Assembly (NCBI GenBank): GCA_016617785.1
Contig: JADILM010000004.1
Span: 1,860,001 to 1,924,000 of the forward strand
Length of the DNA: 64,000 bases
Reading direction: 5' to 3'
Source of the DNA: Sporobolomyces roseus
Taxonomy: Eukaryota > Basidiomycota > Microbotryomycetes > Sporidiobolales > Sporidiobolaceae
The notes under the pieces are model-generated. The model made no database searches. It was not told the DNA's origin and was given only the letters and a program-made list of their open reading frames with translations. This document shows, in pieces, positions 6,706 through 63,672 of the stretch; the first letter of the stretch is position 1, and every line of letters starts with the position of its first letter. The position numbers were made by a program, and so were the translations under genes.

Positions 6706-7078
6706 TTCAACCTGCTCAAAAAGGATTGCATCAGTATCTTCCATGCCACGGACCGAGTACTGGATTGTCAGGCTAGAGAATCGGGAGCTGAGATTTGGCG
6801 ACGAAGGAGAGATTAGGCTTCAACACCTCGTCAATCCTCCTCGAGCTTACAGAGATATCTCGCAGATTATTCAGGCCTCCACTGCTATCCTCTGTCTCGC
6901 TCATATGCGTTGTTGATCCCTCGTGAGCGTTTGTTGAGTGTTCATCTCCCAAGTGTGTTCGCTCCGTCCTCACACCTTCAGACCAGCCTAGGATGAAGGG
7001 AGTCTCACCTCGGATAGTTCTACGTGTATCTGTGTGTTCAAATCGGCACAAGCTGAGGTGTGAGTGAAGAGTGAGAGG
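6706..7078 (-). promoter_or_regulatory. P1 leader exon and leader intron
   Basis: The leader exon (about 7009-7078) shows the family pattern CTCTCACTCTTCACTC ... ATACACGTAGAACTATCCGAG followed by GTGAG. The inferred intron is 6712..7008 (297 nt), ending in GAGCAG six bases before the ATG. This is the most diverged of the ten leaders. Confidence 0.55.
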
Positions 7079-7217
7079 TCAAGAGTGCAGGTCAAGTTTA
7101 TCTGGCTCTTGTTCTCCTACCGTCTCCCACTATCTATCACGTTGCTCTGTATACATCCGATAAAGCTACTGAACCGTCCTGAAAGCTTTACCGAATCAGG
7201 AGTGGTCCTTGTCGTCG

Positions 7218-9055
7218 ATGCCACCTTCCTCTCCATTCCCTTCAGCAATCACTTCCCCTCATGACCTATACAAACAGAAACGAGACTTTCAGAGACCCAC
7301 AGTACTCAGGTGAGTCTTCACTATCCTCGCCTAGCTCTCCAGCCTTTCTGACCTTTCAATTCCTCCCCACTTTCGCTTCGTATTCTCACCTCAAATCAGT
7401 CGTTATTCAATCCTCGGTTTCCTATCCTCGGGCACCTATGGACGAGTGTACAAAGCCCGAATTCGTCAATCCTCCTCCCTCGACTCTCCAGCAGGTCTAC
7501 TCGGAACACCTTCAGCCGCGACACCGGGAAAGAGAGTGAAATTGGCTAGAGAGGAGGGGGAGGAAGAAGGGGAATTGGTCGCAATCAAGAAATTCAAACC
7601 GGATAAAGAGGGAGAGGTTATCACTTATACAGGGATTAGTCAGAGTGCTTGTAGGGAAATCATGGTGCGCTTCTCGATTTCTTCTCGATCCTGTTTGAGC
7701 TCGACGACAGTCTGATCGAGCGAATTCGACTACTCAGATCAATAGAGAGATCTCACATGAGAACGTGACGGCTTTGAGGGAAGTTATGCTCGAGGAAAAG
7801 AGTATCTATCTAGTTTTCGAATATGCAGAACACGATTTCCTCGTACGCTCCTACTCTTCCTATTACTCATATCTCCCTTCACCACACAGACTGATATTCC
7901 AATTCTCCGTGTAGCAAATCATCCACCACCATTCGACAACTCGCACAAACCTCCCTCTCGGAGTCCTCAAATCTCTCCTCTGGCAACTCTTCAACGGTGT
8001 TTCCTACCTCCACGACAACTGGATTATTCATCGAGATCTCAAGCCCGCAAACATTCTCGTCAATGAGAAAGGTCAAGTCAAGATCGGAGATTTAGGTTTA
8101 GCTCGATTGTATCAAGAACCTCTTCAATCTCTCTATACTAGTGACAAGGTACCCTCTCTTCCTCTTGATCTATCTCCGCAATACGGCGAGCTGATAGACT
8201 GTAGCCTTGAGTGTAGATCGTAGTGACAGTTTGGTATCGATCCCCGGAACTTCTCCTTGGAGCACGACATTACACTCCTTCAATCGATATCTGGTCACTC
8301 GGTTGCATTTACGGTGAGATGTTGTATTTGAGACCGATGTTCAAAGGAGAAGAAGCAAAGATTGAGATGGGAAGTAAGAAGGGGGGCGTACCGTTTCAGA
8401 GAGATCAAATGAGTAGAGTCATCGAGATATTGGGGAGCGTCGATCGTAGGTTAACTAAACACTCGAGTCCGCTTATCCGAGCTGATTGGATGCGTTTTGT
8501 GTGATCTTGCAGTGAAAGAATGGCCCACTGTGACTCAACTTCCTGAATATCCACAACTCTCCCGTTTAGACAAGCGCGTTTCCTCATCCTCTTTCTCGCT
8601 CTGTCGGCTCTCAATCACTCACATCTCTCCCTCTCGTAGGTATCCAAACACTCTCGGACCCTGGTTCAATTCGCGTCTACCTCGAGGTGCTCAACCCTCG
8701 TTAGCTTTCGACCTCATGCAACAACTCCTCATTTACGATCCTACGAAGCGTATGACCGCCCGCGCCTCACTATGTCATGACTGGTGGGCTCAAGAACCGA
8801 AACCTCACGTCAAGTAAGCTTCTCTCCCTTCCTCTTTCAATCGACAACGCGAGCTTACGATTTGAGAGGGTTTCGTTTCGTAGTGCGTTTCTGCATTTAG
8901 CTCAAGGGATCTCGTACCCCCCAAGGAGAGTCAGTCATGATGATACGGATCCGAAGATGCAACATTCTACTTTGGGGAAATATGGGGGATCGAATTATCC
9001 GGTTCAGAGTGGAGCTGGAGTCGCGGGAAGTAGTAGGAAGAGACGACTCGAGTAG
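7218..9055 (+). CDS. SSN3: SSN3/CDK8, Mediator cyclin-dependent kinase
   Basis: Kinase of the Mediator CDK module, which phosphorylates RNA polymerase II machinery and transcription factors in the nucleus. Exons 7218..7309, 7400..7664, 7738..7842, 7915..8148, 8217..8445, 8513..8573, 8640..8813 and 8884..9055 give 443 residues. The start was set by the family block [20 protein letters not shown] followed by [14 protein letters not shown] (P-loop). Later blocks are VAIKKFK (catalytic Lys), [18 protein letters not shown] (DLG, as in fungal CDK8 rather than DFG), [15 protein letters not shown] and [13 protein letters not shown]. An acidic insert of about 35 residues lies between the P-loop and the catalytic Lys. 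The sixth intron appears to use a GC donor. The gene is divergent from P1. Confidence 0.95.
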
Positions 9056-9212
9056 AATCAGAAACGTGCCAGTAACGAAGTCGGGGAGAGGAAGAGTCAG
9101 TAGCAATGTTGTTGTAACTTTTCTCAAGGTTCTCAGTTTCGTTCACGTTGATTCCTTTTCTCTATTGCGTTTCTATCGAGTACTCTAACGAAGCTATCGA
9201 CAATTCTTCAAT

Positions 9213-11692: not shown

Positions 11693-13050
11693 TCAATCCT
11701 GTGAGAACAAACACTCGTACTCTGCCTTGATTCCATGCGCTTCGAGAGCAGCCGTGAGTCCGAGGTATCGAGCAGAGTCGAAGGTCGGAAGGATGCCGAG
11801 CTCAAGAGTTTTGAGAGAAGAGAACTTTCGCAAAGTATCGACGACTTGAGCTTCTGGAAAGATGTCTTCGGCGACTGTAGACTTTGTATTCGAGTCGCAG
11901 AACCATTGGGATCCGTTGAATCCGATACTGATGAGATTTGGCGAGTTGTCGAGGAGCGTTTGTAGAAGAGCGAGAGACGGACCGTGACTGTTCCATAGAT
12001 CGAATGTAGCGAGATGCGGGAAAGACTTGAAGATGTCACAGGGAACTCGAGGAGCGCTCAAGGTTGTACAGAGGGACCAGTGGAGTGTCCAATTATCGTC
12101 TCGCTTGAAGGAGATTGTTAGATTTCGGAGGTTTGAATGAACGAGGGTCGGGAGGATGAGAAGATGTACTCCATTGGTAGCAGTCGAGCCGTGAAAATGG
12201 AAGATATCGACTGTTGGTGGAGCTGAGGGGAATGGGGGAAGCGAAGAGGACGTTTTAGTGGAGAAAGTCGAGACCTGGTAGTACTTTATGTTGTCGAAGG
12301 GAAGCTGAGGTATTTCTGAGGCGAGACCATCAAAAGTGAAGTTGACGTCGAGCCTGACGGTAGCAAGAGACGGGATTGAGACTTGGTCGAGAGTTTCGAG
12401 GAACCTAGAAAGGTTATTCGTTCGAGGGAGGGCAGATGCGAGATGAGATCCTTTGAAAGTGATCGACCGGATTCGAGGGAGAGTGAGATGTCCATAGAGC
12501 GAATCCAGAGGTTCTGGGAGGCGTGCAGGGCCGAGTGCGAGTGCTGCAAAGAGACGTCGCAAGTCTTCTTCTGTCGCGAAAGTGAGGTCGACTTCTTGCA
12601 GTAACGGACAGACATGCAGGATCTCAATGTACCAGTAGTAGCCTGATGTATTGGTCCGTCCTCCTACGCGCGATAGGATACGGTGCCTGTCGATGCCCCG
12701 GATCCAGGACACAATGTTGAAAGTATCGCGAACGAATCGACCGAGATAGCCGTTGCTCTCTTGAAGAGCTGCGAGAAGCGAGTTCGCTAGGGTCCATGTC
12801 GGTGTTCGCTGATAATTGAAAGGTCGACAATAGAGAGCTTTGCGAGCGGAGTTTAGAACTTGACGTGAAACGAGACAAACTCTTTTGAGAGAAAGAACAT
12901 CGACTGAAACGCAATTTGATCAGTCGACGTCTTATAGCTGGTGAGGGACTGAGAAGAAATACCTTCTTCGTCGTCATCATAGCTGGTCTTGCGAGTCAGA
13001 TTTGAGCAGATCTGATCGACGAGTTCTGCAGGAAGGGACGAAAATGACAT
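11693..13050 (-). CDS. P2: F-box/LRR-like paralogue
   Basis: Exons 12963..13050 and 11693..12903 give 432 residues. The F-box reads MSFSSLPAELVDQICSNL, an acidic linker, then VCLVSRQVLNSARKALYCRPF, split by a 59-nt phase-1 intron. Mid-protein family blocks include CPLLQEVDLTFATEEDLRRL. The C-terminal block has HGPSLALLQTLL, SPNLISIGFNGSQWF, EDIFPEAQVVDTL and LGILPTFDSARYLGL. It is the leftmost member of the five-gene minus-strand tandem block (P2-P6). A role as SCF substrate receptor is inferred from the F-box; no substrate can be guessed. Confidence 0.88.
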
Positions 13051-13460
13051 CTGCGAAGAAGAAAGCGAAGGATCAGCTTCACGTTCACTACAAGTTCATC
13101 TCTTACACCTCGTGATACAGCAGCCTCCACTAGTCCCTTTCGTATGACTGATTGATCCGTTTCCATCTTCGAGGAGGAGAGCAAATTCGTCCCTCACAGA
13201 GACCTCTGACACCGAGCTGGACCTTTCCATAGGCTTTGATATATTCCTTACACAGTATACGCCAACCTGTCTCTCGCTTCCTGCCTTCGTCGCTGACTTT
13301 CCATCCCTCATTCAACGTCTCATCTCCCTCCTCCAATATCGCCCTCTTGAACCTCGGAGAAGAGCTGAGACTTACCTTGATAGTATCTAAGGAGCTTGAA
13401 GTATATCGAGTCGAAGTTTGAAGCGAATTTGAGGTGGTCGAGTGAGAAGTGAGGAAGAGA
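13051..13460 (-). promoter_or_regulatory. P2 leader exon and leader intron
   Basis: Leader exon about 13376-13460, leader intron 13051..13375 (325 nt) with GTAAGT donor and CGCAG directly before the ATG. It carries the shared blocks TATGGAAAGGTC and a variant of TGAGGGGATTGGAAGTCAG. Confidence 0.7.
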
Positions 13461-13768
13461 AGATTTGGCACAGAAAGTTTGCGAGTCACAGAGGGCAAAC
13501 ACCTGTCCTGTGACGATATCGATCTATCATTGCCCTCATATTGCTGTCTGGCTTGGAGCTGAAGAATGATTGAGCATTGGAGCGAGGCTCAGCTCGCAAT
13601 CCTGCGACGAGAAAATCTCAGTCGCTCTTGCACCGGCGAGTAGAGGAAAACCCGTGACTTCGTTTGAATGCAGCCAAAAGAGAAATGGAAGAGGTGAAGC
13701 GCTTTCAAATTCAATTTCTCCTCATTCGTCTATTCCGTTTCCTTCTTTCAAATTAAGGGGTTCATTTC
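13461..13768. other. spacer between P2 leader and P3
   Basis: Presumed P2 promoter plus P3 3' flank. I see no gene in it. Confidence 0.5.
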
Positions 13769-15089
13769 TCATGCCTGTTGACAGATCGCATACTCCGTCC
13801 TGATACCTCCCTGCTTCAATGCCAATCTGAGTGCCTCGTATTTGAAAGGGTCGATGGTAGGGAGTGTGCCGAGATGGAGGGATTCGAGGTGAACGAGTTT
13901 CGACAGAACAAACGAGAGTTGCGCTTCGGGAAAGATGTCGTTTGAGTCGGCAGAGGCAGGATTGGAGTACGAGATCCAATGACAGCCTCCCAACCCGATG
14001 ATCCGGAGGAAAGGTGAGCCACCGAGGAGAGTTTCGAATAATTGGAGCGAGGGACCGTGAGAGCCGGTGAGGTTTAAAGTTTCGAGATGAGGAAAAGAAC
14101 CGAAAGCTTGAGGCGGGAGGGAAGGACCATGGGAGGAATCGGAGTATGTCGCCAATGATCCGAGGTTTCGACGTGCAAAGAAAATGAAATTCAGAGAGAG
14201 GGTTCGAAGATTCCTGCCGACGTTCCCGGGAAGCGCGCAAAGATCCGTACGATCACTGCTATTGAGATTGAGGAAATCGAAGGATTCAAGGGAGTCGACC
14301 AGTCGAGGGCAGAGGGCAAAGGCAATTCCCAGCTCGTCTTTAGTTACAATTTGAACGTGTTTGACCGGGAGTGGGAAGCTGGCACCGGATGGCGCGCTTT
14401 GTGTTGACCTTCTCCAACTCAACAAACTGAACCTGACTCTATCGAGGCACGAATAGGAGTTTGTCGAAGGCATTCGATGATTTCCGAAGAAAGGATGTTG
14501 CGATTCGGTTGTGATTGTGGGTGAGGCGAAAGGAAGTCGATACTGCGGAGGCCCGCAGATGGAAGGGAATGTGGAGATGAGCTGGCAAGAGCTGCAGATA
14601 CAGGATAGCGAGGGAAGAGATCTTCGAGGAGTTGTTTGAATTTCTCCTTCGAATGCAAGATGAGGTCGACCTGTCGAAGCCGCGGGCAGGTCCGGAGGAC
14701 ACGACGATACCAATTTCCCTCGCCAAGGAATAGCAAGAACTGATCGATGCCGGATGTCTCTCGAACGAGTCGCCCTAGTCGCCCGTCGTCCCTTTCGAGA
14801 ATCGACAAGAGGCGATCGATCCGAGTCTGCATCGTGTCTCTAGCTGTCCACTGGGGTCCCAGGAATGGTAGGCGATAGAGCACTGGTTGAGCCGATTGGA
14901 GGGTAGCCTTCGAAACTAGGCAGAAGCTGAGAAGACTTTGGCGGTCGACCACTGTGAAGCGAAGCTGAGTGTTCGTATGTCGCTACACGCCGAGCGAGAC
15001 GGCTACTTACCACATGCCTTGTCACCGATCTCTCCAACGAAGTAAGCGATCTGATCGACGAGTTCTTCAGGAAGTGAGGAGAATGACAT
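13769..15089 (-). pseudogene. P3: F-box/LRR-like paralogue with a frameshift
   Basis: Exon 1 (15011..15089, MSFSSLPEELVDQIAYFVGE) and exon 2 (13769..14951) follow the family plan with a 59-nt phase-1 intron. The frame starting LLSFCLVSKATLQSAQPVLY stops at 14419. The rest of the family sequence (RVRFSLLSW ... HGPSLQLFETLL ... NDIFPEAQLSFVL ... LGTLPTIDPFKYEAL) continues in another frame. The switch lies near 14436-14455, where GTGCCTCGATAGAG passes from one frame to the other. The combined exon length is one base short of a multiple of three, which fits a single-base deletion. No intron of usable size fits the gap. Either this is a fresh pseudogene or the base is a sequencing error, because the downstream half is otherwise intact. 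Confidence 0.8.
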
Positions 15090-15503
15090 TCTGCAAAGAA
15101 GAGAGCGAAAGATCAGCTTGACGCTCGCTCAATGTTCGACTCCTACTTCTTGTATTCCGGCGGCCTTCACTAGTCCCCTTGGCGTGACTGAAGCCTTTTC
15201 CCAGCTTCGAGGAGGAGAACAGAATCTTTCCCTCTTTCAAACAACCTCTGCCATCGAAACGGACCTTGTCATCAACTCTCGTGTACTCCTTGCACAGTAT
15301 GCGCCCATCTAGATATGTCCTCTTGCTTTGTTCGCTGACTTCCGATCCCTTCATTCAACCCTTTCATCTCCCTCCTCCTTTCTGTCCCTTTCTAGCCTCT
15401 CAGCGGTGCTAGTACTCACCTCGATAGTATCTAAATATCTTGTCGTAGATCGAGCTGAAGTTTGAAGCGAATCTGAGGTGATCGAGTGAAAGGTGAGAAA
15501 GAG
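15090..15503 (-). promoter_or_regulatory. P3 leader exon and leader intron
   Basis: Leader exon about 15420-15503 and intron 15091..15419 (329 nt), with GTGAG donor and TTTGCAG one base before the ATG. It stays well conserved although the coding frame is broken. Confidence 0.7.
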
Positions 15504-15960
15504 AGAGTTCGCGAAGTTTCGCGAGTCAATGGTTTTAAGTGCTCACATATCGCAATCTCATCTGCCTACTCGTGCATCCGAGCAGAGAACTCTCTCCTGA
15601 GGGGACAAAGATCGAATCGATCGCGAGAGAAAAGCAAGGAAGCTTCGGAAGTCGAAGAATGCGTTTCGTTCGCTCGACAGAGTTCGTGTGCAAACGTAGG
15701 ACCGCGAGCTACTCTCTTCTGCAGCTAACGGCTGGTGATAGTACCCATGAGCGCCGCTCAGCAGGATCTAAGAGAAAAGAGCGAGTAGTCACATTTCGAT
15801 ACAGAGAAAACGACATTTTTGTAGAACGAAGGATTTGAGGTAAGTGACCACACGCTTGCTCGCAATCCTCTTCCTCCTCTGCGCTCGACTCTCTCGCACT
15901 ACACGCAATCTCCCCTTCCCCATTCTCCATCCACATTCAGCTTTCCAGCTCAGCTCCGTT
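15504..15960. other. spacer between P3 leader and P4
   Basis: Presumed P3 promoter and P4 3' flank. Short open frames cross it on both strands, but none looks like a gene. Confidence 0.5.
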
Positions 15961-17332
15961 TCATTCCTTCTCGCAGATGTCGTGATCAGCCCAGATCCCT
16001 TTCTGCAATAAGGTGCGCTCCATATTTTGGTATCTTGAACAATCGAGAGTTGGGAGGACGCCGAGATCGACGAGGTCGAGACAGGGAAATTTGGCGAGAA
16101 CGGCGATAATTTCGTCTTCAGGAAAGATGTCAGCAGGATCATCTGATAAAGGTTTGTGGTCGGAGATCCAGCGACTGTAGGGGAGTCGAAGGTAGGCGAG
16201 AAGAGGAGACGCGTTGGCCAGGATTTCGAGAAGCCGAAGAGAGGGACCGTGAGTAGCGGAGAGTGTGAGAGTGTCAAGGTGAGGGAACGAGGCGAAGGAT
16301 TCTGGGCGAAGCGGGGGAGTGTCACGGTAGGAAGTGTAAGTGGACAAGGTGCAGTCGAGTCCCCATTTGGAGTTCAAGCGCAATGCAAGCGTTCGAAGAT
16401 TCGTCCCGAGAGTCTGCGATAGTGCTGAAAAGTCGGAACCGTCGATTGCGAGATTGCCATTCAGGTCGACGTGCTGGAGAGTGTCTGTCGATCCGGAGAA
16501 CGGGAGAAGCCAAGGAATGAGTCGTCGATCAGACCAAAACGAGAGCTCGAGTCGACGGATGCGAAACGGAAACGAGCAGATTACAGTCGTGTCCTCCTCC
16601 AGAACCCAATCGACGCCAACGATAGAGACGCTGTCGAGGGAGCGAACCAAACTGGTTTCGAGAGCGCTGAAGACCTGCGAACAGCTGATTCGGGGAGTGT
16701 CGATCCATTTAACAGGAGTTCCTCCGAAAGTGATTTTGCGAAGATTCGACGTCAGAGGTACGTGTGAAGAGGAGGGACCGAGGGCGCGAGAGACAGGAAG
16801 ATGAATCGAGAGTGAGCGTAAAGCAGTGTACAGTTGATCCTCGGTGGACAAGTTGAGATCGACTTGTCGAAGTCGAGCGCACGCTCGAAGCACCCGATGG
16901 TACCACGACAGTGTGTCTTCCGATATTGCTCCGACCATCTCCTCCTTCACTGCTCTATTGAGATCGTAAAGCCAACTGTCTATCCCGCGCGTCTCACGAA
17001 CCAATTTACCGAATTGATTGCTGTTCGCCTCGAGAGATTCGACGAGATTACGAGCTCGATCCCACGACACAGCGTTGTCTCCGTCTTGGTAAGCGTAGCG
17101 ATCGAAAGGCTCTTGATATAGGACTCGGCGGGAGGAAGAAAGCGTTTGTCTCGAGACCAGAGATAGCGAGAGAATGTTCATAAAGTCGTCCCCTGCGCAA
17201 GTCGATTTGTCAGCAACCGTCTCAGGATCTCTCCATTATTGATTGGAACTTACTCGCATTCCAATGTGGGTTTGCGTCTACGTAATATGCGATGTTTTCG
17301 ACGAGTTCTTGAGGAAGCGATGAGAACGACAT
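15961..17332 (-). CDS. P4: F-box/LRR-like paralogue
   Basis: Exons 17254..17332 and 15961..17192 give 436 residues with a 61-nt phase-1 intron. The F-box is MSFSSLPQELVENIAYYV, then LSLSLVSRQTLSSSRRVLYQEPF. LRR-like blocks follow (CARLRQVDLNLSTEDQL, VRSLDSVSIVGVDWVL), and the C-terminal signature is complete: HGPSLRLLEILANASPLL, SRWISDHKPLS, ADIFPEDEIIAVLAKF, LGVLPTLDCSRYQNM. The frame is intact and there is no sign of decay. It lies third in the minus-strand tandem block. An SCF adaptor role is inferred from the F-box only. Confidence 0.9.
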
Positions 17333-17750
17333 CTGTAGAACGGCAAGCGCGGATGATCAGCTTCAAGTCACTCGCAGCTAACACGCTACTTCTCTGCTAT
17401 GCAGTCATATTGATCACCGCTCCTTCTGTCCCACTTGTACCCTCTCCAATCTCTGAGGTTGAGAGCAACATCTTTCTCTCAGAAGACCCCCGACTGTCGT
17501 GCTAGATCTTTCCATGACCTCCCAAGCACTTTATACGCTGTATGAGCCAGCCCATCTTTACCCTCGTACCGTCGTCGCTGAGTTCCAATCCCCTCATTCA
17601 TCCGTTTCATCTCCCTCCTCCATTCTCTCCCTCACTACCAATCGAGAAGAGTTGAGACTTACTTTGATAGTATCCACGTAGCTTGAACTCTCTCGAGTTG
17701 AAGTTTGAAGCGGATTCGGGGTGACGAAGTGAAGGGTGAGAAAGAGAGAG
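17333..17750 (-). promoter_or_regulatory. P4 leader exon and leader intron
   Basis: Leader exon about 17663-17750, intron 17333..17662 (330 nt), GTAAGT donor, CTACAG directly before the ATG. It aligns closely by eye with the leader introns of P9 and P10. Confidence 0.72.
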
Positions 17751-18194
17751 GAAATTTCGCAAGTCGGCGAAGTTTAACAAGCTTCGATCTTCTCGCTTTC
17801 TAGCTCGTAAAGCTGTTCGTTGGGCTTGGCGTACTGCTCAGCCGAATGTCTGGCGCGGAGAGAGAAGCATTCGACCGCGAACTTGGAGAGAAGCTCCCGC
17901 GAGTTCCCGCTATTCGCTCGTTTCCTTCAAGCCTGACCACCTCACTCGACTGATGTTCTACTACCTGAGAGTCATTGATGAGCTGTTGGGCGCCAGAGCG
18001 AAGAGAGAACGAGATTGGAGACATCAAAAAGGTGAAATAGACAGATTTCCATTTCTCGAAGTAACAAGCGACTTCCTACTACATTGACATCCTACTCTTT
18101 GTCTCCCCTTCTTGACAAGCGATTACTTCCTTCAAAGTTCACTCAAGCGCGACCTCGATCCATTCCTTCTTGAATGACCTTAACCCCATTCAGC
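17751..18194. other. P5 3' flank; part of the inverted duplication
   Basis: Positions from about 17905 to the P5 stop are near-identical, in inverted orientation, to the flank downstream of P8 (49437 to about 49735). The P8 side carries about nine extra bases (CTCAAAGCG-type insertion near 49640). No gene is seen. Confidence 0.7.
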
Positions 18195-19589
18195 TTAGAC
18201 GCAACAATCGAAGCGAACCTTTACTCCTCTCGATTCCAACGTCTTAACGAGACCTTGATATCTTTCTTCTGTTGTTGTCGGCAACAAGCCTAAATCCATT
18301 TCGTCGACATGTTTGAACTGCTCGAGGGCAGAGAGAATCAGGGTTTCGGGGAAGATCTCATCGGGAATTGTCGAAAGAGAGTTCGAGTTGGAGATCCAGC
18401 GAGAACGATGAAGGTCGAGCACGCGAAGAAGAGGTAAAGCCTTGGCGAGTGTTGCGAGGAAGCAAAGTGAGGGTCCGTGGATATTGTCGAGCGTGAGAGA
18501 AGTGAGCAGAGGGAAGGAAACGAAATTATCGAGAATGAGCGTTGAACGAGGAGTGAAAGTTGTGTAGTTTGACAACGTGAGATCGGCGAAGCGTGGATCC
18601 CCCATAACCTTGAGTACGAGCTTCTTGAGGTGTGCGCCGACAAGGGTTCTCAGAGAAGTGAGATCGATCGTTTTGAAGATGAGACTGCTGAAGCTGAAGG
18701 TTTCGAGTGTGGACGGTGGGAGGGGGAAGAGTGGGATACATTCGGCGAGGGGCGACGAGATGGTCATTATACGAAGATGTTTGCATCGTAAAGGGAAAAG
18801 AGGAGTCGAGCTGGTCGGTGGATCGAGATGCCATCGGACGTTCGCAAACGTGACTGTATCGAGCGAAGGGATCGAAGCCCGCTCGAGAATAGCGAACACT
18901 CGGCGTGGATCAATTGAGGTTTCGGTTCGAGCTAGTCGGAAACAGTGGTCGAACACAACGCTGTCGAGTCGATTTAAAGACAATGATGGATGAGAAGGAT
19001 TCTGTGAGGATAAAGTGTCGGTAACTGGAGCGAGGAGATGGAGAGCTTCAAGAAGCGCCTCCAATTCTGTGGTGGTTCCAAAATTGAGATTGACCTCCCG
19101 AAGGTTTGGGCAAGCGCGCAAGACCTCGATGTACCACTTCCTATGCTGATCGTCCTTTCCGAGTATCAGAAGATAATAGCTTATGCCGAGCATTCCACGA
19201 ACGAGTCGTCCAAGTCGGTTGTCGCTCGCCTCGAGCGCAGTTAGGAGTTTGACGATTCTGTCCTCAGCGAATTGAATTTCTGTCTTCTCGTTGCCACTAG
19301 ATCTCCCTTCGATTAGACTGGTGAGGCTGATGAACGGTCGACGGTAGAGGCAAGCTTGTCCCGAGGAGATGGTACGTTTTGAGATTAAGCAGAAATTGTA
19401 CAAGCTCTTGACGTCGATCACTGCTCGATGTTGGGGATCAGGCGTTGTATATAGCTCAGTCGCGTCTAGCAGCTCACCATTGTCTAGTCCTCGTTCATCG
19501 GTACCAACGAAGATAGCGAGATGATCGACGAGTTCTTGAGGAAGTGAAGAAAACGACATTCTGCGATCGTGAGAGCGAAGGATCAGCTT
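17905..19589 (-). repeat. inverted duplicate unit, copy 1 (P5 side)
   Basis: A block of about 1.7 kb covering P5, its intron and its 3' flank. It matches 48042-49735 on the opposite strand almost perfectly. The outer limits are approximate because the flanks fade into ordinary family similarity. Confidence 0.9.
18195..19559 (-). CDS. P5: F-box/LRR-like paralogue, twin of P8
   Basis: Exons 19478..19559 and 18195..19420 give 435 residues. The F-box is MSFSSLPQELVDHLAIFVGT, then LYNFCLISKRTISSGQACLY. The phase-1 intron is 57 nt and has no in-frame stop, so retention would yield 454 residues. C-terminal signature: HGPSLCFLATLAKALPLL, SRWISNSNSLS, DEIFPETLILSALEQF, LGLLPTTTEERYQGL. The gene equals P8 in length to the base; I see only three amino-acid differences (Ile16 to Cys; Ala to Thr in IQFAEDR; Leu to Pro in FPETLIL). 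An F-box adaptor role is inferred. Recent duplication or gene conversion explains the pair. Confidence 0.92.
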   Translation of the reverse strand: MSFSSLPQELVDHLAIFVGTDERGLDNGELLDATELYTTPDPQHRAVIDVKSLYNFCLISKRTISSGQACLYRRPFISLTSLIEGRSSGNEKTEIQFAEDRIVKLLTALEASDNRLGRLVRGMLGISYYLLILGKDDQHRKWYIEVLRACPNLREVNLNFGTTTELEALLEALHLLAPVTDTLSSQNPSHPSLSLNRLDSVVFDHCFRLARTETSIDPRRVFAILERASIPSLDTVTFANVRWHLDPPTSSTPLFPLRCKHLRIMTISSPLAECIPLFPLPPSTLETFSFSSLIFKTIDLTSLRTLVGAHLKKLVLKVMGDPRFADLTLSNYTTFTPRSTLILDNFVSFPLLTSLTLDNIHGPSLCFLATLAKALPLLRVLDLHRSRWISNSNSLSTIPDEIFPETLILSALEQFKHVDEMDLGLLPTTTEERYQGLVKTLESRGVKVRFDCCV

Positions 19590-19965
19590 CTTGCTCACTA
19601 CAGGTTCATCTCTTACACCTCGTGATACAGCAGCCATCCCTTGGTGACACCTGAACCGTTTCCCAACTTTGAGGAAGAGAGCAGAACCTTCCCTCGCTCG
19701 AAGACCTCTGATGATCGAGCTGGACCTTTCCATAACCTCGTGAGCACTTGATATACCGTATGAGCCAACCGTTCTCTCCCTTACTGCCTCTGTCCCTGAC
19801 TTCCAATCCCTCATTCAACCGTTTCATCTCCCTCCTCCGTTTCCTCCCTTTCCAACTTCTCAGTGGAGCTATGACTTACCTCGATAGTATCTACGTAGCT
19901 TGAAGTATATCGATCCGGAGTCTTGAGGGAATCTGAGCTAGTCGAGTGAAGAGTGAGAAAGCGAG
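19560..19965 (-). promoter_or_regulatory. P5 leader exon and leader intron
   Basis: Leader exon about 19880-19965, intron 19561..19879 (319 nt), GTAAGT donor, CGCAG one base before the ATG. Apart from the last ~25 bases it differs clearly from the P8 leader, unlike the coding part. Confidence 0.72.
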
Positions 19966-20301
19966 ATTTCGTTTGAGAATTCGCAAGCGGCAAGAACCGC
20001 AACCCGTTTCGATCCTGAATTTGCCACTCTTAGCCCGCTGTGCGAGTCATGAGGATTTGCTTGAGGAAGCTGTCGAGGCTATGCGAGAATGCTCGCGAAA
20101 TCGGATTTGAGAGTGGTAAAAGTGCGAATCGTTACCGTTGGTTTCGCACAATCCCGACTTTGCAAACAGGAATCACTACAAGCTCAAGCTCTGACATACA
20201 TCAAGTCGATCAATAATAAACAAGTACATCACTCAAGATCCGCTGTCCTATTCCTCAATACCCGCTCACTCCCTCGCGTTCTACTAATCAACACACCCAG
20301 C
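19966..20301. other. spacer between P5 leader and P6
   Basis: Presumed P5 promoter and P6 3' flank. No gene is seen. Confidence 0.5.
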
Positions 20302-21636: not shown

Positions 21637-22055
21637 GACCCTGTAAGACAGCTCGAAGAAAGTCAACACATGCTTTTTGATAGCTCGAAAGCTTCTCTGG
21701 GCACCCTTTCTCAATTCTTCTCAGCTCTCCCTCGTTGATGTCAAGGGGTTTTGAGGGTTTGAAAGGTAATTCAATCCTCTCCCTCACCCTCTCCCTCAAT
21801 CCCTGCTCATCTAATACGCTCCAGCATCTCTCAGATATCTGATCTATATCCCAAAACATCCCACACCGCTCCCCTAGTGTTCCTCGCCGTTCTTTCCCGC
21901 TCGTTCCGTCTCATCTCTTGCCTCTTTGTTCGATCTCGCAAAGTTCTCAGGACATCAGGGACTCACCTCGATAGTATCTGAGCAGTCTAAAGTATGTCTA
22001 ACGAAACTTGCGGGCCGATTCGAGAGAGGTAATTGATGGGTAAGGAAGAAAGAAA
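21637..22055 (-). promoter_or_regulatory. P6 leader exon and leader intron
   Basis: Leader exon from 21967 upward, intron 21641..21966 (326 nt), GTGAG donor. The acceptor GAGCTGTCTTACAG lies four bases before the ATG and matches that of P7, a sub-type distinct from the other leaders. The 19-base core seen in most copies is weak here. Confidence 0.65.
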
Positions 22056-22207
22056 TTCTCGAGATAAAACTTGACAGCAGTCTCGTCAAAACTTGCTCGC
22101 TCGCGCTCTCTCGAAGACGACAGCGCTCGTGTTATACGAATGACTACTTGACACATTACACAAGCGAATGAAGAGAACTGCTATACTTTGTTCAAGAAGA
22201 AATCTAA

Positions 22208-45834: not shown

Positions 45835-47228
45835 ATGTCGTTCTCGTCTCTCCCCGAAGAACTCGTCAATCTCATCATCTCAAAGTTGAACCGTCAGAAT
45901 GCGATATATGATGGTGCGCCTATGCGATGAACTGGGTCAAAGGCCTAGGCTGATGATTGACCTCCGCAGATCCCGATGGCAAGACGCTTCTCAGTCTCTG
46001 TCTCGTTTCTCGCCAGACTCTCGATCCTGCTCGGCAAGCATTGTACCGTCAGCCCTTCTGGAGCGCAAGTTCTTACAGGTTCAATTGGCATCGAGCGACC
46101 AACCTTCTTACTTCGCTCGCGGCGGATGGCAACTCGCGCGGTCAACTCGTTCGAGGTACTCGTCTGGTCAGAAGATATCTCCAAACTCTCATCAAAGACG
46201 ATAAAGCTTCAGGGACTTCTACTAGGCGTAGTATGAGATGGTTTGCTCAAGTGCTCGCAGCTTGCCCGCACTTGAGACACGTGGAACTCGCCTTCGAAAC
46301 CATTCAAGATCTGGACAGTTGCCTCAAAGCCCTCAACCTTTACACTACGACTGCCGAGGATCGCTCGACTACGGCTTCACCTCCTCTACGTACTCTCACC
46401 TTCGCTCGCCTCCATGAAGATCTTGGCCAAGATGAAGAGAATGATCCAGAGTATTTCGAATGGAACCCTGAAGATGATATCGATTCCTCTGACGTCTTCG
46501 CCGCGTTCAAGGACACTTCCGTGGTCTCTCTGGACGAGCTCCGCTACGAGGATATCGGATGGATGCACTCTGGACTTCCCTTCGGCAAACCTCAATTCCC
46601 TTTCCCTGTCAAATCTCTCGAAATCGTCTCTTTCATCGACTCCCTCGAAACCTGTCTTCCTTTCCTACCCCAAAACAATTCCCTACTCGAGTTCTTCAGA
46701 TTCTCGGGCAACCCATCCGTCAATCAGAACGACATTCGGGCTCTCCCGAACCTCCTCGGCACCAACTTGAAAACCCTCTCCCTCTACTTTCACTCTGTCG
46801 ATTTCCGTATCGCTGGCGAGATGCTCCCCCTCTCCGAGTACTCCCTCCCTTCAGAGGCTCCTTCCCTTCCACTCGAAACGTTCCGCTTCTTCCCTCACCT
46901 CACTTCGCTTTCCCTCGATTACACTCACGGTCCTTCCCTTCGACTCTTCGAGATCCTCTCAAAATCGTCCCCTCACCTTGCTCGAATCAATTTCCTCTGG
47001 TCATTCTGGATCTGCGATTCGAATCCTCGCTCGAACGACCCCGACGAGCTCTTTCCCGAACAGCAGATACTCGCAGTTTTAGACAAGTTCGAGCACCTTC
47101 ACGACATACACCTCGGTTTCTTACCCACAATTCACAAGGAGAGGTATGATGGCTTTGTCGCTTCCCTTGAATCGAAAGGGGTTGAAGTATGTTTCGATTG
47201 TTGTATCGACGAGGTTGACTGGTTCTAG
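45835..47228 (+). CDS. P7: F-box/LRR-like paralogue
   Basis: Exons 45835..45913 and 45970..47228 give 445 residues; the phase-1 intron is 56 nt, the shortest in the family. The F-box is MSFSSLPEELVNLIISKL, then LLSLCLVSRQTLDPARQALYRQPF. Middle blocks include CPHLRHVELAFETIQDLDSCL. C-terminal signature: HGPSLRLFEILSKSSPHL, FWICDSNPRSN, DELFPEQQILAVLDKF, LGFLPTIHKERYDGF, ending with FDCCIDEVDWF. The Cys-Cys near the end recalls P5/P8 (FDCCV). It is the first gene of the plus-strand tandem block. An SCF adaptor role is inferred. Confidence 0.9.
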
Positions 47229-47315
47229 CGTTGTATCGAGGAGGGAAACAATTGTTTGTCAAGGAAAGACAGTGGAAGGGAGTAGCTCGCACGCCGTTGT
47301 CTGTTCGTCCGAAGT

Positions 47316-47530
47316 CCTTGCAGTTTGAATCGAATGTGAATCGTCTTTTGAATCAATGGAATCTGTCGAATTGCCTATCTCAATGCTGCCACTCTAGGTT
47401 TCTCTTTGTACTGGAGATATTCAGCGATTCGTCGACCCTGATTCAGCGAAAATGGATCGAGCGAGGTCGGTTAGGCTTGACTGAAATGAGCGAATCTGTT
47501 GATTTCGACGAAAGCCTTCGCTAGTCGCAC
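47316..47530 (+). repeat. promoter repeat, copy 1 (upstream of P8)
   Basis: About 215 bp almost identical in inverted orientation to 63790-64000 upstream of P10. Weaker similarity continues from 47530 into both leaders. A 60-residue frame inside it is shared with one change but has no splice or start context, so I take it as non-coding. Confidence 0.85.
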
Positions 47531-47660
47531 TCACACCTCTTCCTCCCTTCGGATCCGGTGAGCTGGGCCTCTTGTACAGGTCAAGGAGCTCGAAAAGCGA
47601 GAAACATTCAAGATTGTCGAACCTCTCTTTGACTTGCGAAATTCCTTCGAGATGGTCGAC

Positions 47661-48071
47661 TCTCTTTCTCACTCGTCACTTGATCACCTCAGATTCGCTT
47701 CAAACATCAGTTCGAAATACCTTGAGATATCAAGATACTACCAAGGTAAGTCCTAGCTCTTCTGAGGGATTCGAAGGGGAGATATTGGAAGAGGTAAATG
47801 AAACGGTTGATTGAGGGGATTGGAAGTCAGCGACAAAGGCAGGAGGGAAGCTACAGATAGGCTGATACGGTGAAGAGAGTGCTTAGGAGGTCATGGAAAG
47901 GTCTAGTACGACAGTCGGAGGTCTCACGAGGTAAAGGATGTTGCTCTCCTCCTCAAAGTTGGGAAAGGGTACATGGGACAGTAGGCGGTGATAGATATCA
48001 CTGCATAGTCGAGGAGTAGAGTACCAGTTGCGAGAAACTTGGAGCTGATCCGTCGCTCTCACGATCGCAGA
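47661..48071 (+). promoter_or_regulatory. P8 leader exon and leader intron
   Basis: Leader exon about 47661-47745, intron 47746..48070 (325 nt), GTAAGT donor, CGCAG one base before the ATG. Contains TGAGGGGATTGGAAGTCAG and ATGGAAAGGTC. Confidence 0.75.
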
Positions 48072-49735
48072 ATGTCGTTCTCTTCACTTCCTCAAGAACT
48101 CGTCGATCATCTCGCTTGCTTCGTTGGTACCGATGAACGAGGACTAGACAATGGTGAGCTGCTAGACGCGACTGAGCTATATACAACGCCTGATCCCCAA
48201 CATCGAGCAGTGATCGACGTCAAGAGCTTGTACAATTTCTGCTTAATCTCAAAACGTACCATCTCCTCGGGACAAGCTTGCCTCTACCGTCGACCGTTCA
48301 TCAGCCTCACCAGTCTAATCGAAGGGAGATCTAGTGGCAACGAGAAGACAGAAATTCAATTCACTGAGGACAGAATCGTCAAACTCCTAACTGCGCTCGA
48401 GGCGAGCGACAACCGACTTGGACGACTCGTTCGTGGAATGCTCGGCATAAGCTATTATCTTCTGATACTCGGAAAGGACGATCAGCATAGGAAGTGGTAC
48501 ATCGAGGTCTTGCGCGCTTGCCCAAACCTTCGGGAGGTCAATCTCAATTTTGGAACCACCACAGAATTGGAGGCGCTTCTTGAAGCTCTCCATCTCCTCG
48601 CTCCAGTTACCGACACTTTATCCTCACAGAATCCTTCTCATCCATCATTGTCTTTAAATCGACTCGACAGCGTTGTGTTCGACCACTGTTTCCGACTAGC
48701 TCGAACCGAAACCTCAATTGATCCACGCCGAGTGTTCGCTATTCTCGAGCGGGCTTCGATCCCTTCGCTCGATACAGTCACGTTTGCGAACGTCCGATGG
48801 CATCTCGATCCACCGACCAGCTCGACTCCTCTTTTCCCTTTACGATGCAAACATCTTCGTATAATGACCATCTCGTCGCCCCTCGCCGAATGTATCCCAC
48901 TCTTCCCCCTCCCACCGTCCACACTCGAAACCTTCAGCTTCAGCAGTCTCATCTTCAAAACGATCGATCTCACTTCTCTGAGAACCCTTGTCGGCGCACA
49001 CCTCAAGAAGCTCGTACTCAAGGTTATGGGGGATCCACGCTTCGCCGATCTCACGTTGTCAAACTACACAACTTTCACTCCTCGTTCAACGCTCATTCTC
49101 GATAATTTCGTTTCCTTCCCTCTGCTCACTTCTCTCACGCTCGACAATATCCACGGACCCTCACTTTGCTTCCTCGCAACACTCGCCAAGGCTTTACCTC
49201 TTCTTCGCGTGCTCGACCTTCATCGTTCTCGCTGGATCTCCAACTCGAACTCTCTTTCGACAATTCCCGATGAGATCTTCCCCGAAACCCCGATTCTCTC
49301 TGCCCTCGAGCAGTTCAAACATGTCGACGAAATGGATTTAGGCTTGTTGCCGACAACAACAGAAGAAAGATATCAAGGTCTCGTTAAGACGTTGGAATCG
49401 AGAGGAGTAAAGGTTCGCTTCGATTGTTGCGTCTAAGCTGAATGGGGTTAAGGTCATTCAAGAAGGAATGGATCGAGGTCGCGCTTGAGTGAACTTTGAA
49501 GGAAGTAATCGCTTGTCAAGAAGGGGAGACAAAGAGTAGGATGTCAATGTAGTAGGAAGTCGCTTGTTACTTCGAGAAATGGAAATCTGTCTATTTCACC
49601 TTTTTGATGTCTCCAGTCTCGTTCTCTCTTCGCTCTGGCGCTCAAAGCGCTCAACAGCTCATCAATGACTCTCAGGTAGTAGAACATCATCGACCGAGGT
49701 GGTCAGGCTTGAAGGACTGGAGCAAATAGCGGGAA
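48042..49735 (+). repeat. inverted duplicate unit, copy 2 (P8 side)
   Basis: Matches 17905-19589 in inverted orientation over the gene and about 300 bp of 3' flank. Apart from a few substitutions and an insertion of about nine bases in the flank, I see no differences in the coding part beyond those listed for P5. Confidence 0.9.
48072..49436 (+). CDS. P8: F-box/LRR-like paralogue, twin of P5
   Basis: Exons 48072..48153 and 48211..49436 give 435 residues; the 57-nt intron is identical in size to that of P5 and also free of in-frame stops. The F-box starts MSFSSLPQELVDHLACFVGT, and the C-terminal signature (HGPSLCFLATL, DEIFPETPILSALEQF, LGLLPTTTEERYQGL) follows P5. Upstream, however, the leader and promoter are unlike those of P5 and close to those of P10, so the coding cassette seems to have been copied into a different promoter. 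Probable F-box adaptor; function inferred. Confidence 0.92.
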   Translation: MSFSSLPQELVDHLACFVGTDERGLDNGELLDATELYTTPDPQHRAVIDVKSLYNFCLISKRTISSGQACLYRRPFISLTSLIEGRSSGNEKTEIQFTEDRIVKLLTALEASDNRLGRLVRGMLGISYYLLILGKDDQHRKWYIEVLRACPNLREVNLNFGTTTELEALLEALHLLAPVTDTLSSQNPSHPSLSLNRLDSVVFDHCFRLARTETSIDPRRVFAILERASIPSLDTVTFANVRWHLDPPTSSTPLFPLRCKHLRIMTISSPLAECIPLFPLPPSTLETFSFSSLIFKTIDLTSLRTLVGAHLKKLVLKVMGDPRFADLTLSNYTTFTPRSTLILDNFVSFPLLTSLTLDNIHGPSLCFLATLAKALPLLRVLDLHRSRWISNSNSLSTIPDEIFPETPILSALEQFKHVDEMDLGLLPTTTEERYQGLVKTLESRGVKVRFDCCV

Positions 49736-50289
49736 CGATCGCAATCGGATGCTCCTTTTCCCCTACGAGAAAGTCCGCTGAGTAGTACGTCGAGCTGAAC
49801 AAGCAGGTGTACGAGCTCGAAAAGGAGAGATCGAAGCTTGTCGAAAACCATCGACTTGCGATTGTTCGCTCTCTCTTTCTCACTCTCTACTTGATCACCT
49901 CAGATTCGCTTCAAACTTCAAATCGAATTACCACAAGCTACGCAATTGCTTTCAACGTGAGTCTCAGCTCTTCTGTAAGTTTCGAAAGGGAGGTAAAGGA
50001 GGAAAAAGATGAGAGATTGTTGAATGAGGGGATTGGAAGTCAGCGACAAAGGCACGAGGGGAGAGAATGGTCGGCTCATACGGTGTATTGAGTGCTCAGG
50101 AGATTATGGAAATTCCAACTCGACCGTCAGACGTGTCGAGAGAGGGAAGACCTTGTGCTTCCCCCTCGAAGTTGGGAGAGGGTACAAGTGGGACAGAAGG
50201 AGCGGTGATGGATATCGATACATAGCAGGGAGGTAGAGTGGCAGCTGCGAGAAATTTGGAGCTGATCCCTCGCTGTTGTCGTTCTATAG
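49736..50289 (+). promoter_or_regulatory. P9 upstream flank, leader exon and leader intron
   Basis: Leader exon about 49870-49956, intron 49957..50289 (333 nt), GTGAGT donor, CTATAG directly before the ATG. The shared blocks TCAGATTCGCTTCAAACTTC (exon) and TGAGGGGATTGGAAGTCAG (intron) are present without change. The 130 bp before the exon are presumed promoter. Confidence 0.72.
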
Positions 50290-59043: not shown

Positions 59044-59193
59044 TCTCTTGGAGTTGAAAGAGAGTCAAGATAGAGTAGAGTAATGGACTCTAATAAAGAG
59101 AAAGAGATCAACGTCAACGAAGCGAGTTCCCCCTTTCTCTCTTTCCCACCTCACTCACTGTACTCGTAGCGGACAGTAAGCAGAGTCATATGA

Positions 59194-61566: not shown

Positions 61567-61937
61567 AGGGAATGTTGTTCGTCTTTAGTCGTTAGTTCTG
61601 TCTGTGTTTGTTGTATACCTCAAGTCTCTGCAAGCAAGTTCTTCGTTTCTCGTTTCTCGCAAACGATTATGTGAGGATTCAATTAGAACGTCCGAATATC
61701 GCTTTCACAGCCGGCGACGAGCGAGACCAACGAGAAGTAAAGCACTGATTGCATTGCCATCCGTTGATACAACCGTTCTCCCCATCCTCCCCGTTTGTCC
61801 TTCTCGTGATCACTTTGCAAACCTTCGAACTCGAGCTACAATTCCCTTCACTCATCGTGACAAACTTCGTACTCCACTTTCATGCCTCTCAGTTCCAAGC
61901 TGGCTTTCAATCCTTCGCCCACACAGTCACTAGACCG
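61567..61937. other. convergent intergenic, ETP1 / P10
   Basis: 3' flanks of two convergent genes. No gene is seen. Confidence 0.6.
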
Positions 61938-63260
61938 TCACCAATAGTTGTAACAAGCGGTATACTCGAACTGTATCCCCTTCTCCTTCATCTGAGTCCT
62001 GAGATCATCGTACCTCGAGTAGTCGGTCGTGGGTAGAATGCCGAGATGAACTGTTGCGAGGCGTGGAAAGAGCTGGAGAGTGTCCGGGATTTGTGATTCG
62101 GGAAAGACGTCGTCGAGAGCGATGGAGTGAGGGATGGTTTCAGAAATCCAGTAGGACTCGTTGAATTCGATATTCGAAAGGAGAGGGCAAAAGTTGGCGA
62201 GATCGCGGAGGATAGTGAGGGAGAGACCGTATTGTGCGTAGAACTGGAGATTCTTCAAGAGGGGGAAGGACTGAAAAGCTTGAATGGGGAGTAGATTCTC
62301 CGTTGACTGAGAGGCGTAGTCTTCGAGGGCCATGGACTCCTGGCAGCCGGTCGCTTGCAGGCGGAGGCTTCGAAGATTGGATCCAGCGACCTTGGGAAGA
62401 GCAAGCACATCACCTGGGAGGAGACGGCCCATGTAAACGAGGGATTCCAAGTTGGTGGTTGAACGGGGGAAGAAGATGAAGTGTGCGGCTAGACTGGTCC
62501 AGAATACGATGTCGCGTATTTCGAGGCGTTTGACGGGGAATGGGTAACAGGGAACGGCGTTAAGCGGTGAACGCAGACCCCAGGCGATGTTATCGAACTC
62601 GATACTGTCGGCGGAGCGTATCAATTCTCGACGGCACGCACCGAAAACCTCGATGTAGCTGACTCTGGAGGTTAAAAAGCTGTGGTCGAGCCAATCCAAT
62701 TCGAAGAACCTGATGGTACTGATCGAGGATGAGGAGGGATCTCGAACACGCGAGGATTCGAGAATAGCGAGAACTTCGTGTAAATCCTCCTTCGTCGTGA
62801 AGCAAAGATCGAGGTGTCTGAGCTGCGGGCAAACTGCGAGACTTTGACGATACCATTCAGGAGTTCGGATATCGACGTCGACATCGTTCCGACATCGGCT
62901 AGCATAGGAGCACTTTGGCAAGAGGAATTCGATTGCCCGTGTATCGCGAACCAATGCTCCTAGCGTTCGATCGTCTGCTTCCAAGCTATCGAGAAGGAGG
63001 TCCGCTCTACGTTGTCGAATGCGTAGATCGGAGTCGTATTTGGCGACAAGGAATGGTTGTCGATAGAGGATTCGTCTGATGGTGAGAAGAATTTGTTTCG
63101 AGACCAAGCAGAGAGACGCAACTATTTCGCGCGCCATATTCGTTAGCAATAGTAGTGTAGAGCGATAGAGCGCGCCACACTTACGTGTAGATCCAGGCGT
63201 ATATCCGAGGTGTCCGCAAACGAGATCGACGAGTTCTTGAGGAAGGGACGAGAATGACAT
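61938..63260 (-). CDS. P10: F-box/LRR-like paralogue
   Basis: Exons 63185..63260 and 61938..63121 give 419 residues; the 63-nt phase-1 intron lacks in-frame stops, so a 440-residue read-through form is possible. The F-box is MSFSSLPQELVDLVCGHL, then ASLCLVSKQILLTIRRILYRQPF. Middle blocks include CPQLRHLDLCFTTKEDLHEVL. In the C-terminal block HGPSL is replaced by YGLSL; SYWISETIPHS, DDVFPESQIPDTLQLF and LGILPTTDYSRYDDL remain. It is a lone copy at the right edge, convergent with ETP1. F-box adaptor role inferred. Confidence 0.9.
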   Translation of the reverse strand: MSFSSLPQELVDLVCGHLGYTPGSTRKCGALYRSTLLLLTNMAREIVASLCLVSKQILLTIRRILYRQPFLVAKYDSDLRIRQRRADLLLDSLEADDRTLGALVRDTRAIEFLLPKCSYASRCRNDVDVDIRTPEWYRQSLAVCPQLRHLDLCFTTKEDLHEVLAILESSRVRDPSSSSISTIRFFELDWLDHSFLTSRVSYIEVFGACRRELIRSADSIEFDNIAWGLRSPLNAVPCYPFPVKRLEIRDIVFWTSLAAHFIFFPRSTTNLESLVYMGRLLPGDVLALPKVAGSNLRSLRLQATGCQESMALEDYASQSTENLLPIQAFQSFPLLKNLQFYAQYGLSLTILRDLANFCPLLSNIEFNESYWISETIPHSIALDDVFPESQIPDTLQLFPRLATVHLGILPTTDYSRYDDLRTQMKEKGIQFEYTACYNYW

Positions 63261-63672
63261 CTGCGAAAATTAAGAGCGAGGGATCAGCTTCAGCTTACTC
63301 GCAGCTAGTAATTTACTTCTCTACTCTACAGCATACCCAGCACCGCTCGTTTGTCCCTCTTGTCCCCTCTCCCATCTCTGAGATTGAGAGCAACCATTCA
63401 TCCCCTTGTAACACCCCCGACTGTCGAGCTTGACCTTTCCATAGCCTCCTAAGCACTCTATAGCATATATGATCTTATACTGAGCTCCCCTCCTGCCTTC
63501 TTCACTGACTTCCAATCCCCTCATTCAACGTCTCATCTCCCTCCTCGATTTCCTCCCTTTCCAGCCTCTCAGTAGAGCTGTGACTCACCCTGATAGTATC
63601 TGGGTATCTTGAGGTAGATCGAGTCGAAGTTTGAAGCGAATCTGAGGCGGTAGAGTGAAAGGTGAGAAAGAG
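63261..63672 (-). promoter_or_regulatory. P10 leader exon and leader intron
   Basis: Leader exon about 63589-63672, intron 63261..63588 (328 nt), GTGAGT donor, CGCAG directly before the ATG. Contains TGAGGGGATTGGAAGTCAG and CTATGGAAAGGTC. Confidence 0.75.

Follow-up and report, generated by a model that had tools for sequence, protein, structure and literature searches.

Why should paralogous genes whose proteins have strongly diverged keep the same non-coding leader? The question is raised by a 64,000-nucleotide (nt) stretch of the Sporobolomyces roseus genome (C4:1860001-1924000, here called the window; the whole genome is 22.4 Mb in 15 contigs), which carries ten genes of a predicted F-box/LRR family, P1 to P10, each preceded by a leader exon and a long leader intron; other family members are given g numbers. 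With a confidence slightly above even, we read this leader, from its sequence, as a promoter-proximal module under constraint that would control expression in the manner of a first-intron enhancer and serve as a common tag of the family.

In all ten window genes a leader exon is followed by a GTRAG donor and an intron of 297-333 nt before the ATG, and the donors lie where the original prediction had placed them. Donor-to-ATG distances are 303, 325, 330, 330, 320, 330, 334, 326, 333 and 328 nt for P1 to P10, and subtracting the gap of 0-6 nt between the AG and the ATG reproduces all ten proposed intron lengths. The block TGAGGGGATTGGAAGTCAG recurs, slightly changed, in P2-P5 and P8-P10, as had been noticed by eye. 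By predicted donor, acceptor and ATG-free leader exon, the sequence fits a promoter-proximal intron of the 5' untranslated region (5'UTR) in 10 of 10 window genes. The leaders, all but one assigned to types I and II, are as follows.

6712..7118, minus strand: P1 leader, divergent type (exon about 7009-7118, donor 7008, intron 7008-6712, 297 nt)
13051..13485, minus strand: P2 leader, type I (exon 13376-13485, donor 13375, intron 325 nt)
15091..15529, minus strand: P3 leader, type I (donor 15419, intron 329 nt)
17333..17772, minus strand: P4 leader, type I (donor 17662, intron 330 nt)
19561..19989, minus strand: P5 leader, type I (donor 19879, intron 319 nt)
21641..22076, minus strand: P6 leader, type II (donor 21966, intron 326 nt)
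45391..45830, plus strand: P7 leader, type II (donor 45501, intron 330 nt)
47636..48070, plus strand: P8 leader, type I (donor 47746, intron 325 nt)
49847..50289, plus strand: P9 leader, type I (donor 49957, intron 333 nt)
63261..63698, minus strand: P10 leader, type I (donor 63588, intron 328 nt)

The leader intron had been described as fixed in length, which is a strong tendency with one exception: 24 of 25 measured genes have 300-336 nt between donor and ATG, and g2 (C4:1816800) has 155 nt. In the 23 genes for which both positions were located it averages 325.7 nt (range 300-336 nt, standard deviation (sd) 9.4), with P1, g19 and g26 at 300-308 nt; in g24 it is 316 nt. The proposed contrast with short introns elsewhere holds for the family's own intron 2, which measures 56-66 nt in 18 of 18 modelled genes and is the sole intron checked.

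To locate the constraint, divergence was compared across promoter, leader exon, leader intron, 3'UTR and codons in the 14 genes whose models were sound, giving 91 pairs (P1 and P3 were among the members excluded, and type II was represented by P6, P7 and g15). In the 88 pairs with protein divergence above 0.3, which leave aside P5/P8, P7/g15 and P5/g22, mean divergence was 0.62 for promoters, 0.58 for 3'UTRs and 0.57 for fourfold sites, all of which appear close to saturation, and 0.42 for both the leader exon and the leader intron. The leader exon was less diverged than fourfold sites in 81 of the 88 pairs and the leader intron in 79; divergence at or above the synonymous level in every pair, the outcome on which the predicted constraint was to be abandoned, was thus not found. 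Leader-intron divergence is 0.24-0.42 within type I, 0.25-0.32 within type II and 0.51-0.59 between types; as predicted, the introns of P4, P8, P9 and P10 are 71-75% identical and their proteins 31-35%. One of the 88 pairs, P8/g22, has an intron divergence of 0.394 versus 0.292 at fourfold sites.

Conservation is uneven along the leader (positions are counted from the donor, negative in the exon and positive in the intron). Across 14 type I leaders it starts at about -115 and stops near codon 12; divergence p is about 0.25 in the exon, reaches a minimum of 0.13 at +47 to +92 and is 0.3-0.5 thereafter. The best 40-column window, from +45, has a mean pairwise divergence of 0.116, which was reached in 0 of 5000 column permutations, and the last 70 nt of the leader exon are free of insertions and deletions in all 14 type I genes. 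Between types I and II the lowest windows are -81 to -42 (0.39-0.41) and -1 to +95 (0.39-0.48), most others lying at 0.5-0.7.

What survives between leader types is mainly the first 95 nt of the intron and a pyrimidine-rich leader-exon element, E1 (CTCACTCTTCACTCGACCACCTCAGATTC-like). That part of the intron holds the second surviving element, the purine-rich E2, which has GRGAGATGA near +50 and is GGAGGAGGGAGATGAAACGGTTGAATGAGGGGATTGGAAGTCAGCGACAAAGG-like in type I. Their positions in two type I leaders are given here.

13425-13454, minus strand: E1 of P2
about 13283-13330, minus strand: E2 of P2
63638..63667, minus strand: E1 of P10, -79 to -50 from the donor
63496..63543, minus strand: E2 of P10, about +45 to +92, with GAGATGA at its set position and the leader's lowest divergence

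Base composition shifts along the leader in each of the three groups compared: pyrimidines make up 69-80% of the E1 bin, and purines account for 20-31% of bases at -90 to -60 and for 79-88% at +30 to +60. G-runs are nearly absent from -120 to the donor and start after it. E1 and E2 are separated by 129-132 nt (sd 0.47) wherever E1 scored above 5, which it did in 22 of 26 genes; among the four genes below this cut-off P7 gives 129 nt. In P1 and g24, whose donor is shifted by 8-11 nt, the E1-donor (70-79 nt) and donor-E2 (51-62 nt) distances compensate for one another, and E2 is retained in g2 despite the 155-nt intron.

Start codons are also unevenly placed around the predicted splice site. In all 26 genes the final 70 nt of the leader exon lack an ATG; 2000 shuffles gave a mean of 21 and a minimum of 8. 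These exons come from related genes and so do not amount to 26 independent trials. Each leader intron contains 3-8 ATGs; 40 fall at +50 to +84, in 22 of 23 genes, versus 18.9 expected, and numbers in the remaining intron are near or below expectation. An ATG stands at +52 in 19 of 23 introns, at +53 in g1 and at +63 in P1 and g26, and is lost in g3. The frame that follows the +52 ATG is not kept: the upstream open reading frames (ORFs) have 3 to 73 amino acids (aa) and differ by insertions or deletions of 1-2 nt. This pattern of a free exon and an ATG-bearing intron fits the predicted spliced 5'UTR, and the absence of ATGs from the leader exon suggests selection.

Two other uses of the intron were considered and rejected. 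A coding role is contradicted by stops in all three frames in 14 of 14 type I genes and by the lack of a clear period-3 pattern. A hidden middle exon flanked by two short introns would need an inner donor, which by eye is not conserved in the alignment; nor was a second stretch found that is as ATG-poor as the leader exon (+170 to +204 holds 7 ATGs versus 15.2 expected).

The family to which the leader belongs occupies one region of the genome. A whole-genome search with P10 gave at least 43 matches, all within C4:1,797,596-2,103,168, a span of about 305 kb lying roughly 23 to 329 kb from the contig end; the array is subtelomeric because contig C4 terminates, at 2,126,566, in TTAGGG repeats (L028:957-1000). 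Its members are arranged in tandem, head to tail. The leader search proposed for finding further members was productive: a hidden Markov model (HMM) of the ten window leaders gave 27 matches at E < 1e-3, and a model rebuilt from 26 leaders gave 30 matches at E <= 5e-10 in the 240 kb examined, 26 of them its own training sequences. Both searches together place a leader match at 29 of the 33 family loci in the sequence examined, and none at four. DNA searches with the P2, P6 and g1 leaders returned matches confined to the C4 cluster, and patterns allowing up to three mismatches matched only inside the family cluster (10 of 10 matches for E1, 7 of 7 for E2, 0 for reversed control patterns); copies of E1 or E2 outside the cluster were thus not found by whole-genome DNA and pattern searches, which weak copies could escape.

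Any explanation has to accommodate uneven conservation, element spacing, ATG depletion, the two block exchanges described below and the lack of copies found outside the family. In the explanation that we favour, a transcribed, ATG-free, pyrimidine-rich E1 and a purine-rich intronic E2 about 130 nt apart would form a module straddling the first splice site, inherited from a founding gene and kept by purifying selection, and the subtelomeric F-box/LRR array would be expressed under one programme through this leader. The module would most likely act on DNA or nascent RNA, either as an enhancer in the first intron or as a downstream promoter element. The long intron would both hold E2 and take the ATG-bearing stretch out of the mRNA, and the coding cassettes could diverge free of the leader's limit, occasionally being replaced between leaders by recombination. 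Transcription start, splicing, enhancement and co-regulation are all predicted steps of this scheme. Of the roles that had been suggested for the leader, constraint is supported for the two elements and a family-restricted tag fits; a structured RNA is not supported, and homogenised leaders over diverging coding parts do not match the recent events described below.

Several points weigh against the expression module. The evidence is sequence throughout, with splicing and transcription start inferred, and the leaders compared are paralogues of one genome. The E1 model was trained on 13 of the 22 genes that show the constant spacing; the maintenance of that spacing despite a shifted donor depends on P1, with a weak score of 5.7, and g24 (7.6, with a second-best placement at 4.5), and the best but unreliable E1 placements in g2, g25 and g26 give 118-119 nt. 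If the leader exon is taken as 110 nt, 5 of 26 hold one ATG. The leader intron is not below fourfold sites in 9 of the 88 pairs, and four of 33 loci are leaderless. Finally, the gamma shape of the leader tree, 1.76, indicates only moderate site-rate variation, and part of the similarity within types may therefore reflect younger shared ancestry.

The start codons admit a different interpretation, possible if unlikely, in which E2 is an intronic splicing element combined with a conserved start-codon trap: in a retained intron the +52 ATG and others would block the F-box ORF, and splicing would switch the family on. This would explain why exon ends are ATG-free in 26 of 26 genes, why ATGs are in excess at +50 to +84 with +52 occupied in 19 of 23, and why G-runs start only after the donor. 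A trap of this kind sits poorly, however, with a reading frame that is not preserved after the +52 ATG and with P1 and g24, where the distance of E2 to E1 is better kept than that to the donor; moreover, the ATG excess may merely mirror the letters of the motif, the rest of the intron being near or below expectation.

Whether leaders resemble one another through exchange can be judged from the exchanges that the array has undergone. Self-comparison of 235 kb returned two long near-identical blocks between family units, each comprising one coding sequence (CDS), its 3'UTR and the upstream sequence of the next gene; the nine other matches listed reached the threshold of 88% identity over 70 nt and span 72-480 nt.

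48043..49736, plus strand: exchanged block 1, copy 1, from P8 ATG-29, across the CDS and 3'UTR, as far as 221 nt before the P9 donor
17903..19588, minus strand: exchanged block 1, copy 2, from P5 ATG-29 to 241 nt before the P4 donor
45768..47623, plus strand: exchanged block 2, from P7 ATG-67 to 123 nt before the P8 donor
63695 in the window to C4:1925532 outside it: copy of exchanged block 2, from g15 ATG-67 to P10 donor-107

Block 1 (P8/P5) covers 1695 nt at 98.6% identity and block 2 (P7/g15) 1856 nt at 96.6%; the coding sequences are 99.6% identical in P5/P8 and 98% in P7/g15 (first 400 codons of g15), and the leaders of these pairs differ by 25-57%. Promoter divergence is 0.14 for P4/P9 and 0.09 for P8/P10. 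In the pairs set aside above, P5/P8, P7/g15 and P5/g22, intron divergence is 0.315, 0.248 and 0.296 versus 0.000, 0.034 and 0.291 at fourfold sites. Three of the four block ends lie inside or at the edge of the leader island, and the fourth about 100 nt short of it, with similarity continuing past. Since the blocks end at or near leaders, the CDS blocks moved and the leaders stayed. The idea of a homogenised leader over a diverging coding part does not match these recent events, in which near-identical CDS blocks lie under differing leaders. Two events are too few to prove preferred exchange borders, and leaders, as the best shared homology, would favour such ends.

Tree incongruence was set aside as proof of exchange: the leader tree, which is star-like, does not reject the clades P5+P8 (p 0.278) or P7+g15 (p 0.155). 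It rejects P5+P8+g22 (p 0.0009), a clade supported 100/99 in the protein tree, and the protein tree rejects P4+P8+P9+P10 (p 1e-46), which are close in intron distance and unresolved in the leader tree; these clades were chosen after inspecting distances.

These data bear on the rather improbable explanation that the leaders belong to a younger or repeatedly converted tandem stretch and function only as a normal promoter and 5'UTR. A tandem head-to-tail array with demonstrable block exchange is the setting in which this would be expected, and the star-like leader tree with its gamma shape agrees with it, as do tracts that leaders share, for example 53 identical nt in P9 and g16 (p 0.019 uncorrected). 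Yet the recent exchanges affect CDS blocks and spare leaders, and a permutation test for conversion within leaders (3000 permutations) gave p < 0.05 in 10 of 91 pairs and in 0 of 91 after Bonferroni correction. Nor does common descent sit easily with divergence that varies from 0.13 to 0.5 within 250 nt, with the survival of E1 and the early intron between types, or with the ATG absence that suggests selection.

A more novel reading, doubtful for now, is that leaders are fixed expression sockets between which whole cassettes of CDS, 3'UTR and the next upstream region are swapped, by recombination with its borders at the leaders. If true, the set of ubiquitin-ligase receptors would keep changing, perhaps in the service of non-self recognition. 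That the leader instead serves as recombination homology for copying coding cassettes, its conservation being a by-product of that use, is very unlikely: both blocks do run from ATG-29/-67 to 107-241 nt before the next donor and lack the leader core, but there are two events only, one end falls about 100 nt short of the leader island, the leaders beside the blocks are not homogenised, and ATG depletion and element spacing are left unexplained. Least credible of all is a structured RNA, or an E1-E2 helix masking the donor, since the pyrimidine-rich E1 and the purine-rich +30 to +60 bin could pair in principle but the alignment fold gives z = -0.2 (14 leaders), single-sequence folds go beyond z = -2 in 1 of 14, 7 of 21 E1-E2 duplexes have a better energy than with swapped partners and 11 a better one than with a shuffled E1, indicating no specific pairing, and Rfam has 0 matches in the window at gathering thresholds.

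Several further observations concern the leaders and their surroundings. DNA-level conservation includes the first 12 codons (P10, window 63225-63260, minus strand, and the same place in other type I members), and all 14 type I genes have CTT as their sixth codon, versus 18% usage elsewhere. In P5 (18195-19814, minus strand) the frame is open upstream across most of the leader intron, giving a 539-aa ORF; an extension as long was not seen in the ORF list of the other window genes. The thirtieth leader match, at C4:1805257, precedes no family gene but a 637-aa ORF (L029:1214-3127, minus strand) that starts at the E2 ATG of this orphan leader and has zinc-knuckle-like motifs by eye; it is probably a retroelement inserted into an old leader intron, and Pfam gave 0 families for it at E <= 0.01. 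The member g25 (L022:8978-9438) appears to be a truncated relic, its leader joined straight onto sequence for the C-terminal portion of an F-box protein. Inverted copies at L023:2038-2517 and 8807-9286, 95% identical over 480 nt and accompanied by further pieces, lie among more distant members. Unrelated genes, including those for a MADS-box (SRF-type) factor and a cation efflux protein (window 38143-38697 and 35532-35936), separate two sub-arrays.

The coding regions of the ten window genes are listed here.

5368..6705, minus strand: P1 CDS, 423 aa, intron 2 of 66 nt
11693..13050, minus strand: P2 CDS, 432 aa, intron 2 of 59 nt
13769..15089, minus strand: P3 CDS, frame broken, two overlapping ORFs
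15961..17332, minus strand: P4 CDS, 436 aa
18195..19559, minus strand: P5 CDS, 435 aa
20302..21636, minus strand: P6 CDS, 425 aa
45835..47228, plus strand: P7 CDS, 445 aa; the near-identical g15 sits just outside the window
48072..49436, plus strand: P8 CDS, 435 aa
50290..51654, plus strand: P9 CDS, 434 aa
61938..63260, minus strand: P10 CDS, 419 aa spliced

The overlapping ORFs of P3 (13769-14952, minus strand) lie in different frames, and its leader is conserved as well as the others. Relatives of P10 in the protein collection include a protein of Sporobolomyces roseus JCM5353 at 63% identity and another at 96%; protein searches found eight different relatives (P0001-P0008), five of them from S. 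roseus (P0002-P0006). One of these, P0006 (JCM5353_008876, 794 aa), looks like two adjacent paralogues merged by gene prediction. Pfam gave F-box E-values of 0.04 and 0.09 in 2 of 4 spliced proteins, below the curated cut-off, no F-box match in unspliced ORFs, and LRR matches below cut-off. The AlphaFold2 model of the S. roseus relative P0002 has a predicted local distance difference test (pLDDT) score of 75, residues 1-37, which include the F-box start, falling below 50. In a Foldseek comparison of this model with the PDB, ranks 1-12 were F-box/LRR ligases, COI1, D3 and FBXL17 being best (E 1.9e-6 to 5.8e-5, probability 1.00, template modelling (TM) scores of only 0.27-0.43), ranks 13-14 were LRR-bearing NLR proteins, and Skp2 stood at rank 22. 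The modelled fold appears to have the LRR solenoid of F-box/LRR (FBXL) proteins, and its matches support the predicted identity of the family.

How does this leader compare with known systems? A literature search covering few subscription papers found no description of this F-box/LRR family or its leader. Long 5'UTR introns with elements are already known: the Arabidopsis MHX 5'UTR intron is reported to enhance expression through an element inside it, and introns of the 5'UTR to exceed in length those further downstream (PMC3808313). The leader intron described here is likewise long, has a discrete internal element and is predicted to be promoter-proximal and part of the 5'UTR; unlike that of MHX, the element is shared by about 30 diverging paralogues of a basidiomycete yeast and is spaced against an exon element, and its enhancement is presumed. 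In Cryptococcus, also a basidiomycete, removing introns is reported to lower the mRNA of most tested genes (PMC3744415).

The wtf meiotic drivers of fission yeasts also form a large yeast family with a conserved intron-1 element, the cis-element FLEX being present in intron 1 of some members (PMC9562144). There the element acts as an additional promoter, from which a shorter protein is made, whereas here the first exon looks non-coding and an alternative protein is not indicated; two transcripts of this kind would both encode the same protein, unlike in wtf. The family's proteins are unrelated to wtf, and no evidence of drive was seen. Gene conversion is reported in the wtf family. Like the FBXL receptors COI1, D3, FBXL17 and Skp2, the proteins have, in the predicted model, an N-terminal F-box-like start and an LRR-like solenoid; unlike in those receptors, the Pfam F-box is below cut-off, residues 1-37 have low pLDDT and TM is below 0.5.

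Trypanosome arrays, plant NLR clusters and Candida TLO genes are clustered families diversified by ectopic conversion. The F-box/LRR family resembles them in that they consist of clustered or subtelomeric paralogues, with exchange between copies in some of these families, and differs in that exchange blocks stop at or near conserved leaders. What is unusual is a leader common to a whole strongly diverging subtelomeric family, together with leader-bordered exchange of coding blocks. The array separates constancy of regulation from freedom of protein change, which are usually mixed in tandem families, and its roughly 30 natural leader variants, with strongly diverged filler between two elements at a set distance, are a ready mutational series for fungal leader-intron function. 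The two leader-bordered exchanges offer a concrete hypothesis on how receptor arrays may diversify yet remain expressed.

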